A stretch of 64,000 bases of DNA. Source: Microbulbifer salipaludis. GTDB lineage: Bacteria; Pseudomonadota; Gammaproteobacteria; Pseudomonadales; Cellvibrionaceae. Below, piece by piece: positions 34,478-37,339 of the stretch. The position numbers and the translations under genes are program-made. The notes under the pieces were generated by a model that was not told the origin of the DNA, searched no databases, and worked only from the letters and a program-made list of their open reading frames with translations. The stretch's first letter is position 1, and each line of letters opens with the position of its first letter. The stretch is taken from assembly GCF_017303155.1 (NCBI RefSeq), contig NZ_JAEKJR010000002.1:682001-746000 (forward strand). Reading direction: 5' to 3'.

Positions 34478-35038
34478 ATGGACGCGCTGGAGGCTCTGCA
34501 CAACCGGGTATCTGTCGGCGGGTTGACGGAACCTGCCCCAAGCCGCCAGCAACGGGAGGCCATTTTCCGCGCTGCACTGCGTGCCGCCGACCACGGCAAC
34601 CTGCGCCCCTGGCGCTTCCTAGTGGTGGAGGGCGAGGCCCGCAACCGGATTGGAGAAATCTACCTTCAGGCCAGCGAGGCCGATGCCCCCCTGAGTGGCC
34701 CCCAACGTGAGCGCACACTCGCCATGCCCCTGCGGGCCCCACTGATCCTCGTGGCCATCACCCGTCTGCAAGAGCACCCCAAGGTGCCTTTTGAGGAGCA
34801 GCGCATGTCCACCGCTGGTGCCGTTCAGGCCATGCTGACCGCAGCGTTTGCCGAAGGCGTGGGCGCCTACTGGCGTACGGGGGCGCTCGCCGAAAACCGG
34901 GTGGTCGCAAACGCTCTGGGGCTGGCCGGCAACGAAGAAATCAGCGGCTTCATCTACATGGGCACCCCGAAAAAGCCCCCCCGCCCGGCACCGGAGCTGG
35001 CAGTGGGGGATTTCTTTGCGGAATGGACAGGCGACTGA
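34478..35038 (+). CDS. Nitroreductase family protein, YdjA-like
   Basis: This 186-aa flavoprotein belongs to the small, YdjA branch of NAD(P)H-dependent nitroreductases. ALRAADHGNLRPWRFLVVEG is the FMN-binding N-terminal region, QRMSTAGAVQAMLTAAFAEG the dimer helix, and GFIYMGTPKKPPRP the conserved C-terminal strand. GGAG lies 8 bases before the ATG. The physiological substrate of this branch is not known. Confidence 0.87.
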   Translation: MDALEALHNRVSVGGLTEPAPSRQQREAIFRAALRAADHGNLRPWRFLVVEGEARNRIGEIYLQASEADAPLSGPQRERTLAMPLRAPLILVAITRLQEHPKVPFEEQRMSTAGAVQAMLTAAFAEGVGAYWRTGALAENRVVANALGLAGNEEISGFIYMGTPKKPPRPAPELAVGDFFAEWTGD

Positions 35039-35082
35039 TCGCTGCACATTGGGCGCAAGTGGCGGAAAATTCCGAAATATAC

Positions 35083-35111
35083 TTGCACCCACCGCCACCT
35101 TTCTGTAAAGT
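35083..35111 (+). promoter_or_regulatory. Predicted promoter of tRNA-Ser
   Basis: TTGCAC and TAAAGT are spaced by 17 bp and followed by the GC-rich GCGCGCTCG discriminator, about 40 bp before the tRNA-Ser gene. Confidence 0.6.
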
Positions 35112-35158
35112 GCGCGCTCGCTGATTGGGAGCTATGTTACTGATTAGCAAGACAATTT

Positions 35159-35246
35159 GGTGAGGTGTCCGAGTGGCCGAAGGAGCACGCCTGGAAAGTG
35201 TGTATGTCGAAAGGCATCGAGGGTTCGAATCCCTCCCTCACCGCCA
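35159..35246 (+). tRNA. tRNA-Ser (GGA)
   Basis: The 88-nt class II tRNA has acceptor GGTGAGG / CCTCACC, anticodon loop CTGGAAA with GGA, a long variable arm, and an encoded CCA. Confidence 0.96.
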
Positions 35247-35251
35247 TATAC

Positions 35252-35288
35252 AAAAAAAGCCCCATGCGAAAGCATGGGGCTTTTTTTG
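35252..35288. terminator. Terminator after tRNA-Ser
   Basis: The stem AGCCCCATGC / GCATGGGGCT with a GAAA tetraloop is flanked by A7 and T7, so it can work in both directions. Confidence 0.93.
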
Positions 35289-35291
35289 TAT

Positions 35292-35421
35292 ACGACGCTG
35301 AGGTCGGGTGAGAACCCTCCGGTTCGATTAACTCGCGCATGCGAGTTAAGACCGAGGCAAAGCCGAGCCCGCAGGGTTGAAACACGCCATAGCGTGTTTC
35401 AAGTCCATCCCGACCGGAGTC
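35292..35421. repeat. 130-bp structured direct repeat, copy 1
   Basis: This is the first of two 130-bp copies that differ at only four bases. The sequence folds into nested helices: an outer GGTCGGG / CCCGACC, an inner AACCCT / AGGGTT, a hairpin TTAACTCGC-GCAT-GCGAGTTAA extended by CGGT / ACCG, and a hairpin TTGAAACACGC-CATA-GCGTGTTTCAA. It starts just after the tRNA-Ser terminator and is followed by another terminator. It contains no convincing gene. Confidence 0.85.
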
Positions 35422-35459
35422 AAAAGCCCGCTCAATAACGGTTATAAGCCGGGCTTTTT
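35422..35459 (+). terminator. Terminator-like hairpin between the two repeats
   Basis: AAAAGCCCG and CGGGCTTTT form a 9-bp stem with a 19-nt loop, ending in five T. It would end a transcript of repeat copy 1. Confidence 0.6.
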
Positions 35460-35465
35460 CGTTAA

Positions 35466-35595
35466 ACGACGCTGAGGTCGGGTGAGAACCCTCCGGTTCG
35501 ATCAACTCGCGCCAGCGAGTTGAGACCGAGGCAAAGCCGAGCCCGCAGGGTTGAAACACGCCATAGCGTGTTTCAAGTCCATCCCGACCGGAGTC
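35466..35595. repeat. 130-bp structured direct repeat, copy 2
   Basis: This copy matches copy 1 except at one base pair in the first hairpin stem, where T-A becomes C-G, and at two loop bases (AT to CA). The pair change keeps the stem TCAACTCGC / GCGAGTTGA intact, a compensatory substitution. No terminator follows it directly. Confidence 0.85.
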
Positions 35596-35893
35596 TGGAG
35601 CATCTTCTTCATCTCAAAAAGCCGGTTCTGGAGGAGTGGCTGATTCAATCGTTGCTGTGCGGCTGGCCCGACTGCAAAGCAACGCTAATGAGTGTGTGCA
35701 TACTCGGCAGCGAGTAGTTAAGAAACTGGCGATCAAGCACGCGCCGGTTGATCTAGATCAGTAAAGCGACACTTAAGCGATATTTGGCCTGTCAGTAGCC
35801 TTCCTCTCCAGAGCCTTTGCAGTATGCTGGCAGTAGGTGTTTTAAAAGTTGTATTGATTCCAATATCAACCGCGAAATGGCCGGGAGGCGGCT
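35596..35893. other. Gene-free stretch after the repeats
   Basis: This segment precedes the GCS2-like gene. It contains a 42-codon open frame from a GTG at 35636 to 35764 with no recognised similarity, which I do not call as a gene. The promoter of the GCS2-like gene presumably lies here. Confidence 0.4.
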
Positions 35894-37339
35894 ATGGGCC
35901 AGGAAATTACCAGCACCGAATTCAGCGATGCGGACGAAAAGGAATTTCGGCGCCGTCTGCGTACGGAGACCAACATCCTCAACCGCTGGTTCCAGCAGGA
36001 GCGTTTCGAGGTGCCGGAGAGTCCCATGTGTGGGCTCGAACTGGAGGGCTGGCTTACAGACAGTGATTTCGTCCCTGCGCCGGCGAGTGAGGGGTTTCTT
36101 GCGCAGGTCAACGATGAGCTGGTGGTGCCGGAGATCTCGCGCTTCAACTTCGAGCTGAACAGTATTCCGGCGCCGATCCGGAAAACGGTTTTCAGCGATC
36201 TGAACCGGAGCCTGTCCACACTCTGGCAGACCTGCACCCGGCAGGCCGAGTCCATGGGGCTTCGCGCCATCGCCATCGGCTCTCTACCCACCATCCGCGC
36301 CAATATGCTTACGCTAGAGCATATCTATCCCAGCAAGCGCTACTTTGCGCTGAACAACCGGGTGATGGAACTGCGGCGTAATCAACCGGCGGTACTGTCC
36401 CTGGAAGGCAAGGAAGTGCTGAGGGTTTCCCACCCGGACATCATGCTCGAGGCGGCGGCGACTTCGGTACAGGTGCACCTGCAGGTGGCGCTTGCCGAGG
36501 GCAAGCGTTTTTTCAATGCCTCCACCATTGCCTCACCGTTTATGGCGGCGATCGCAGCCAACTCTCCGTTTCTTTACGGCAAGGCGCTCTGGAGCGAAAC
36601 CCGAATTCCGATCTTCGAGCAGGCGGTCAACCTCGGGAGCTTCCGCAATCTGGATGGCTCCGTGGCCAAGCGGGTCTCCCTAGGTAACGGTTATGTTCGC
36701 GAGTCGCTGCTGGAGCTGTTTCTGGAAAACCTGGACGGCTACCCGGTACTGCTACCAGACAACTACGATCGCACCCCGGAGGAGCTCAGCCACCTACGTC
36801 TGCATAACGGCACTATCTGGCGCTGGAACCGGCCGCTGATTGGCATCGACAGTGACGGTACGCCGCACCTGCGTATCGAGCACCGGGTTCCATCATCTGG
36901 GCCCTCCATGCCAGATGTTGTCGCCAATACCGCGTTTTTCCTCGGGCTGGCAACCTATCTCGCACGGATTCCCGAGGTGCCTGAAGACCGGTTGTCGTTT
37001 GCCGCCGTGAAACGGAATTTCTTCCAGGCCTGCAAGTACGGCCTGAATGCCGAGATCGAATGGATCGATGGCAAAGTGTGGAACCTGCAGCGGCTGGTGC
37101 TGGACGAATTGATCGGTCCCACGGAAGAGGCGCTGGAATCCCTCGGTGTCGACCGAGACGATATCTACAAGTACATCACGAGAATTATCCGCCCGCGGGT
37201 ACTGACGGGTCAGAACGGCTCTAACTGGCAGCGGGCCTACATCAATACGCACGGCGCCAATTTCCAACGCCTGCTGGAAGAGTATTACCAACACCAGAAA
37301 CAGGATATTCCGGTGCATGAATGGAAGAGTGAAGCTTAA
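35894..37339 (+). CDS. Glutamate-cysteine ligase family (GCS2-like) protein
   Basis: This 481-aa protein has the fold of carboxylate-amine ligases related to gamma-glutamylcysteine synthetase. Supporting elements are the N-terminal GLELEGWLTDSD with paired acidic residues, RFNFELNSIPAP, the middle AATSVQVHLQVAL with its HxQ, and the C-terminal LRIEHRVPSSGPSM with an Arg-rich ATP/acidic substrate region. The true product is unknown; it may ligate glutamate to an amine other than cysteine. GGGAGG lies about 6 bases before the ATG. Its 3' end overlaps the next gene by 23 bp, linking it to an amide-cleaving enzyme. Confidence 0.75.
   Translation: MGQEITSTEFSDADEKEFRRRLRTETNILNRWFQQERFEVPESPMCGLELEGWLTDSDFVPAPASEGFLAQVNDELVVPEISRFNFELNSIPAPIRKTVFSDLNRSLSTLWQTCTRQAESMGLRAIAIGSLPTIRANMLTLEHIYPSKRYFALNNRVMELRRNQPAVLSLEGKEVLRVSHPDIMLEAAATSVQVHLQVALAEGKRFFNASTIASPFMAAIAANSPFLYGKALWSETRIPIFEQAVNLGSFRNLDGSVAKRVSLGNGYVRESLLELFLENLDGYPVLLPDNYDRTPEELSHLRLHNGTIWRWNRPLIGIDSDGTPHLRIEHRVPSSGPSMPDVVANTAFFLGLATYLARIPEVPEDRLSFAAVKRNFFQACKYGLNAEIEWIDGKVWNLQRLVLDELIGPTEEALESLGVDRDDIYKYITRIIRPRVLTGQNGSNWQRAYINTHGANFQRLLEEYYQHQKQDIPVHEWKSEA

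Follow-up and report, generated by a model that had tools for sequence, protein, structure and literature searches.

What kind of element stands twice in tandem behind a tRNA-Ser gene of Microbulbifer salipaludis, and what could maintain its fold? The pair lies in a stretch of 64,000 nucleotides, the whole of which is called the window here. A first-pass annotation of the window had noticed two near-identical copies behind tRNA-Ser; both are present, each 129 bp long, and the gene is tRNA-Ser(GGA). The locus is laid out as follows (TLR, tRNA-linked repeat; R1, a profile model described below).

34478-35038: nitroreductase gene, flanking the tRNA-Ser(GGA)/repeat region
35159-35246, plus strand: tRNA-Ser(GGA), found by ARAGORN and by Rfam RF00005; the elements lie behind it
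35247-35292, no strand: T1, a perfect 21-bp palindrome with A/T runs, read from the sequence and beginning directly after the tRNA CCA
35293-35421, plus strand: TLR-like element, copy 1 (R1 match G000:C2:717300-717417)
35422-35458, plus strand: T2, a terminator-like repeat between the copies (78% inverted repeat and consensus scan)
35467-35595, plus strand: TLR-like element, copy 2 (R1 match G000:C2:717474-717591)
35894-37339: GCS2-family ligase gene, the other flank of the region

The copies start 174 nt apart and differ at four positions over 129 nt (35293-35421 against 35467-35595), base 130 differing as well. Two of these differences, 35329 T/C and 35348 A/G, are partners in one stem, where a U-A pair in one copy is a C-G pair in the other, and the remaining two change the loop of the same stem (35339-35340, AT/CA), just as the annotation had reported. 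It had also placed terminators before and between the copies. The T1 palindrome (35247-35292) is there and can be read as a bidirectional terminator, but the terminator consensus scan does not list it, its T-run sitting within its stem, and the site that the scan does list between the copies (35439-35451 on the plus strand, 35441-35428 on the minus strand) compares with 1.2 expected in shuffles. T1 is extended at 86% complementarity (37 nt) by the inverted repeat I1 (35231-35267/35272-35308), which reaches the 3′ end of the tRNA on one side and the 5′ arm of the element on the other. A scan of 35040-35900 found no promoter-like site. The two long reading frames that cross the array have no Pfam match, and a protein-coding array was rejected on that ground. 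BLAST of the window's own genome returned no copies of this type beyond the two in the window; in the flanks of the tRNA genes retrieved from it, elements of similar build can be recognized by eye behind Ser(TGA), Asp(GTC), Phe, Arg(CCG) and tmRNA genes too.

The fold consists of an outer helix, P1, around a core of five hairpins, given here for copy 1 on the plus strand.

35302-35308, plus strand: P1 5′ strand, GGTCGGG, a degenerate inverted copy of the tRNA 3′ end
35312-35325, plus strand: P2 hairpin, GAACC/GGTTC, with GA next, so that the T-arm motif GGTTCGA is present
35328-35349, plus strand: P3 hairpin, 9 bp, carrying the U-A to C-G exchange
35356-35364, plus strand: P4 hairpin, GGC/GCC, its length varying among species
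35368-35376, plus strand: P5 hairpin, CCCGCAGGG, the RtT equivalent being CCCGAAGGG
35377-35402, plus strand: P6 hairpin, 11 bp, from the covariation alignment
35409-35415, plus strand: P1 3′ strand, CCCGACC; the tRNA 3′ end copy of other members is lost here

The outer GGTCGGG/CCCGACC helix (35302-35308/35409-35415) and the hairpins of 9 and 11 bp (35328-35336/35341-35349 and 35377-35387/35392-35402) are as the annotation had described them. Its inner AACCCT/AGGGTT helix is possible in both window copies but pairs at shuffle level in the relatives (72.7% against 72.7%, 43 copies), and GAACC/GGTTC, our P2, fits better. Folded as plus-strand RNA, the two copies reach z scores of -5.8 and -5.9, with 0/200 shuffles as good; the minus strand gives -5.1 and -5.0.

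Covariation was assessed in an alignment, A1, of 43 distinct copies drawn from 27 loci and the window, 28 sources in all, from which the partial copy L032 was dropped, in which BLAST places without a retrieved locus are absent, and whose rows L013, L019, L023 and L029 are without a proper 5′ part. Against shuffles that ignore relatedness, two of the five measures stay at shuffle level, namely pairs with a double change (13 against 11.1; 79/500 shuffles) and pair types (38 against 38.1), while in the same 43 copies P1-P6 pairs 89.3% of cells, above all 500 shuffles (84.6%, sd 0.4), the covariation score is 0.175 against 0.093, and double-change cells number 95 against 33. Slid versions of the structure pair at most 48% of cells. 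The double changes fall in P1, P3, P4, P6 and one P2 pair; pairing reaches 76% of cells in P1 and, within P2, 91% in the outer and 69% in the inner half. RNAalifold alone, run on the alignment, predicted neither P1 nor P2.

That the fold is under selection had been proposed from the paired exchange in the window. The covarying fold of the 43 copies, tied to tRNA genes, speaks for selection; the exchange between the two copies alone is no proof of it, because template switching can make such paired changes in a single step (PMC8794818). Motifs held in common with E. coli, together with exchanges across species, are stronger evidence of selection than the pair's own exchange. The annotation had also suggested a covariance-model search, in which numerous covarying copies after tRNA genes would count as support; that search has been carried out, with a positive result.

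The annotation could name no matching family. A distant match is now found from both search directions, and the window pair are, on profile evidence, diverged relatives of the tRNA-linked repeats (TLR; Rfam RtT, RF00391). R1, a profile model built from type-1 copies of Microbulbifer and a sister genus with E. coli left out, recovers 4/4 of the E. coli tyrT TLRs (E 9e-6 to 4e-4 in 48 kb). Run on 20 sources with TLR-like elements recognized by eye or by RtT, it matches in 17 and finds nothing in L086, L102 and L167; in L049 and L158 its matches are placed elsewhere than those of RtT. The L158 match (E 0.02) is probably a chance hit, and the L049 match is the tRNA-Lys case treated below. From the other direction, the RtT model picks up two type-1 copies weakly (E 0.46 and 0.72). 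On the window stretch itself RtT gives no match at its gathering threshold (45 bits) nor at E<=10, and an Rfam scan of the stretch lists tRNAs only at gathering and, up to E 10, weak scattered matches among which RtT is absent. The four E. coli tyrT repeats, which RtT matches above the gathering threshold, are similar in build to the window element, and TGAGAACC, GGTTCGA and CCCG[CA]AGGG are common to both.

According to PMC8144298, the hallmark of a TLR is that its last 18-19 bp are identical to the 3′ end of the upstream gene. Such a tail occurs in 27/50 of the order- and class-wide loci considered below, and the window copies lack it, the longest exact match of either copy to the tRNA end being the 7 nt of GGTTCGA. 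The position of the array is that of a TLR, directly behind a tRNA gene on the same strand (the tRNA ends at 35246 and copy 1 starts at 35293). Its 5′ arm leans to its own tRNA-Ser, with 2/33 other tRNA ends fitting as well; its 3′ end is not own-matched, since 24/33 fit as well or better. As the array keeps fold and place and has lost the tail copy, we call it a diverged TLR-like element: by Rfam's rule it is no RtT member and by the published hallmark no TLR, and its homology is read from the profile.

The nearest known system is the TLR/RtT of E. coli tyrT (rttR, tyrT-tyrV), which likewise stands behind a tRNA gene in tandem (178 nt in E. coli, 174 in the window), has by our reading the same order of helices, and has the motifs TGAGAAcC..GGTTCGA and CCCG[AC]AGGG. 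Unlike it, the window copies are without the 18-19 nt tail, have a longer P6 and are preceded by a palindromic terminator; Rfam's RtT structure also pairs the middle differently from P1-P6. REP/BIME sequences resemble the window element as short intergenic palindromic repeats and differ from it in length, five-hairpin core and tRNA/tmRNA placement. Integron attC sites share a folded site and imperfect outer arms; the window has no cassette array, unlike an integron, and the attC core-site motif would presumably fit just the flank of copy 2. On grounds of placement and anatomy, attC, REP and insertion-sequence ends were set aside.

How far do such elements reach? BLAST with a window copy hits 29/96 genomes, 28 of them of the same genus (its own included) and one of a sister genus, and in an exact-pattern scan of named genomes the core was found in 14 stretches, all Microbulbifer. 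R1 matches in 32/48 Microbulbifer genomes and, across the order, in 59/194 genomes and 35/96 genera. With RtT, elements are found at E<=1 in 34/96 relatives, five of them above the cut-off, and at E<=0.001 in 66/369 genomes and 57/272 genera of the class, 23 genomes being above the cut-off; the order of Microbulbifer is not Enterobacterales, and the class sample may include some Enterobacterales. Among 14 named control genomes, RtT found E. coli only. TLR-like elements form tandem arrays in relatives as well.

A tRNA or tmRNA gene accompanies most of them. Of 28 loci read for tRNA genes, 21 had one (15 Ser(GGA), 1 Ser(GCT) and 5 Arg(ACG)), and three of the other seven (L005, L012, L026) begin in a 3′ fragment of tRNA-Ser. 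The class-wide RtT search returned 30 loci, and in 27 the end of a tRNA or tmRNA gene falls in the interval from 80 nt ahead of the match to 12 nt within it (Gln 10, Tyr 8, Ser 8, tmRNA 1). Order-wide, such a gene lies within 900 nt of 23/29 returned R1 loci, within 64 nt for 21 of the 23 (Ser 6, Met 6, Arg 7, Phe 2, Val 1, Leu 1); among the other six, three lie near a contig start, of which L214 and L215 end like a tRNA-Arg gene. The 30 RtT loci in relatives have a tRNA gene upstream in 12 cases and a tmRNA gene in 9, the latter being 9/18 of those without a tRNA gene, and one class-wide locus, L182, carries a 19-nt exact copy of the tmRNA end. Among the tRNA and tmRNA genes looked at, the common factor is a tRNA-like 3′ end and no particular amino acid.

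Eight loci (L155, L156, L157, L159, L160, L162, L172, L178) have an element behind tRNA-Tyr, with a co-oriented tRNA-Gly further on. These elements seem to belong to a Thr-Tyr-Gly-Thr tRNA cluster and may therefore be co-transcribed without read-through. At L078 (G012:C2:305800-307500; L057 is the same place) only a 3′ piece of tmRNA stands before the two elements; the site may be the distal end of an island that entered ssrA.

The ends of the elements follow the upstream gene. In 50 loci with a gene found (27/30 class-wide RtT loci and 23/29 order-wide R1 loci), the element's 3′ end has its best match in its own gene, above the ends of all other isotypes, in 43/50, and the inverted 5′ arm fits its own gene best in 26/50, another isotype being as good in 24/50; in a permutation test, 0/10000 reached the observed mean for either end. 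An exact tail of 19 nt is found in 21 loci and one of 18 nt in 6, a longer one in none, and exact copies of at least 15 nt of the gene's 3′ end occur in 21/27 class-wide and nine of 23 order-wide loci. Where fewer than 12 tail bases are exact, in 19 loci, both ends still favour the own gene (9.5 against 6.7 for the arm, 10.8 against 6.1 for the 3′ end). A separate test of 27 loci, chosen by hand and with four tmRNA loci left out, agrees, giving own matches in 18 and 17 of 27, compared with 2 and 4 of 38 element-free control tRNAs.

The copying has a sharp limit. In 48 of the 50 loci, 19 full tails were found, and all 19 are preceded by G in the tRNA, by T (17) or C (2) in the element; in the same 48, the left T-arm half, GGTTCGA, comes after the gene in 44, although in five of the 44 an A comes next and a few of these may be the T-arm of a following tRNA. 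The direct 3′ copy starts at T-loop base 58, a constant break. A full element is therefore made up of an inverted tRNA end, a left T-arm half, a folded core, and a right T-arm half with acceptor strand and CCA. With the 5′ arm an inverted and the 3′ end a direct copy of the gene's end, as in many relatives, P1 imitates the T-stem/acceptor helix of its neighbour: GGTTCGA forms its left side, AATCC...CCA its right, and the core, folded, takes the place of the T-loop.

The same core can wear different ends. In 31 type-1 copies, AACCCTC, the inverted Ser T-stem, is found in 20/24 Ser-linked and 0/7 Arg-linked copies, AACCTCC, the inverted Arg T-stem, in 7/7 Arg-linked and 0/24 Ser-linked copies, and ATCCTCC at the 3′ end in 6/7 and 0/24, respectively; the search pattern missed copies with AAGACC, window copy 1 included, and L012 and L026 were counted as Ser-linked from a tRNA fragment. 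The 5′ strand of P2 matches the neighbouring type of tRNA. A tree of type-1 cores, itself weakly supported, clusters them by tRNA with 3 label changes where 2 is the least possible; moves of cores between genes have thus happened, and the tree does not show them to be frequent.

We give a probability of roughly one half to the reading that the window holds a diverged TLR/RtT pair, producing a read-through RNA processed like a tRNA, with ends kept by local copying and selection. RNA polymerase would pass the terminator T1, or inside tRNA operons simply continue; the transcribed element would fold, the enzymes that trim tRNA ends would cut it out, and the product would probably be a short-lived RNA whose amount follows transcription of the tRNA. 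Duplication, gene conversion or template switching at palindromes, all of them forms of local copying, may preserve the match of the ends together with selection on the helix. For the Microbulbifer element we infer transcription, processing and target by analogy with E. coli, where, according to PMC8144298, the rrA, rrB and rrF TLRs lie between two terminators, as the window element does, are made by read-through and processed, and bind Hfq and CsrA. Unlike the window element they follow 5S rRNA and are predicted CsrA binders, while the same paper has the 19 tRNA-operon TLRs scoring below 0.01 for CsrA binding; it also reports modest effects of deleting rrA/B/F and the withdrawal of a stringent-response role first claimed for a TLR in E. 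coli. The authors of PMC8144298 propose that the copied end serves RNase E, and that logic, carried over to tRNA-linked members, would have the copied end trimmed by tRNA enzymes. In the window array the 3′ copy has decayed, and tRNA-like trimming of these two copies is therefore doubtful.

Two loci bear directly on how the elements arrive. In L049, a tRNA-Lys gene is intact from its first base to GGTTCGA (58/58 positions identical to an intact neighbour), directly after which comes a TLR-like core that finishes in GTCAATCC; in L170 (G357:C141), part of a tRNA-Ser gene likewise runs straight into such a core. These are the only such cases among the retrieved loci, two more rows returned by the script being ordinary elements. 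By their sequence, both place the core at T-loop base 58, the same break as in the tails. The broken tRNA-Lys argues for insertion, and the inverted arm argues against a simple one.

On a wider reading, which we regard as possible and put forward tentatively, TLRs would be a broad gammaproteobacterial class of RNA or DNA elements that enter the T-loop of any gene with a tRNA-like T-arm and acceptor, tmRNA included, and have both ends adapted to that gene, inverted at the left, direct at the right and broken at base 58. If this is true, each element is a tRNA mimic that the host's processing enzymes take for a tRNA end and that has its ends rewritten at every new site.

Less likely than the processed-RNA reading is a miniature mobile element that enters tRNA and tmRNA genes at T-loop base 58, the gene being restored or duplicated and the arrays arising by repeated insertion. 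Many integrative elements insert near that place of tRNA and tmRNA genes, and tRNA and tmRNA genes are the common feature here; the sharp 19-nt limit of the tail and the constant break are consistent with this, as are the unbroken tRNA-Lys of L049 running to GGTTCGA, into the core and on to AATCC, the partial tRNA-Ser of L170, the tandem arrays, and one type of core behind Ser(GGA), Ser(GCT) and Arg(ACG). Against it, a simple insertion yields a direct copy and not an inverted one too, and type-1 cores cluster by tRNA (3 label changes, weak tree). Nor do mobile collections favour it: copy 1 has no match in the plasmid and phage collections, for which reason a phage or plasmid element was rejected, and no viral contig has the exact type-1 pattern. 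The E. coli element is found in 1 record of the phage collection and 27 plasmid records, some of chromosome size and all predicted to be non-mobilizable. No recombinase linked to a TLR-like element was found, and no close pair of empty and filled sites was resolved.

It is improbable that the elements are a by-product of replication, in which template switching at the terminator palindrome and hairpins leaves inverted copies and functionless stems. The palindrome, which links the tRNA 3′ end with the 5′ arm by way of T1 (86% over 37 nt) and is nearly perfect in L029, L136 and L147, would fit such an origin, as would the creation and mending of RNA stems by template switching, of which PMC8794818 says it is capable; mutation alone leaves unexplained the motifs shared with E. 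coli and the recurrence of one fold behind many genes. Very improbable is a 5′ arm acting antisense to its own tRNA end, so that in read-through transcripts it competes with the tRNA fold and marks or regulates the precursor, for although the inverted copy tracks its own gene and the best fold of tRNA, T1 and copy 1 together pairs the arm with the tRNA end (-129.3 kcal/mol, against -33.5 for the tRNA alone and -94.2 for the rest alone), the difference of 1.6 kcal/mol is within method error, and the arm in the window finds a perfect partner in the 3′ strand of its own element.

According to PMC8144298, which deals with E. coli and other Enterobacteriales, the first description of TLRs dates from 1978 and no function was known for them. 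Within the literature searched, to which subscription journals may add, the spread of TLRs outside Enterobacterales and the members linked to tmRNA appear new, as do the inversion of the 5′ arm, the site of the break (T-loop base 58) and the occurrence of a single core behind both Ser and Arg genes, with ends to match each. The result is a much wider set of TLRs with a common anatomy, a forward and often a backward copy of the gene's end, a break at base 58 and variable cores, and the old question of what TLRs are (processing signal, insertion scar or antisense arm) therefore becomes testable. The window array offers a natural decayed case for comparing members with and without the copies.

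Several loci show elements parted from their genes. In L005 (G031), the intact tRNA lies 14.5 kb from the array with an integrase gene beside it, and the fragment at the array is a 32-nt exact repeat; L079 (G031:C2:1760500-1780400) spans a 14.5-kb island in tRNA-Ser(GGA), with the TLR array beyond its far end and genes for an integrase (DUF6538 + Phage_integrase), an impB/mucB-type polymerase and endonuclease I. L005 is thus a case in which an ordinary genomic island used the tRNA end and displaced the array. Two type-1 elements (L241 in G046, L242 in G034, L019, L023) stand about 16.5 kb and 2.7 kb from an intact tRNA-Ser(GGA); in place of the 5′ arm they have 17 and about 11 bases of the left half of the tRNA, with GGTTCGA as the last of them. 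This looks like the outcome of an insertion that recombined at the T-arm half of the element itself; no integrase was identified at either. In L170, the partial tRNA-Ser separates two TLR-like cores, standing after the end of the first and ahead of the second, with intact tRNA-Ser(GCT) and tRNA-Arg(ACG) downstream. A second TLR-like type (GGAGACCAGCGAGC..) stands behind tRNA-Ser(GGA) in other Microbulbifer species (L119, L134, L136, L144, L147), and in L013 (at the L134 site) and L029 this second type is found fused with a type-1 element that lacks the 5′ arm.
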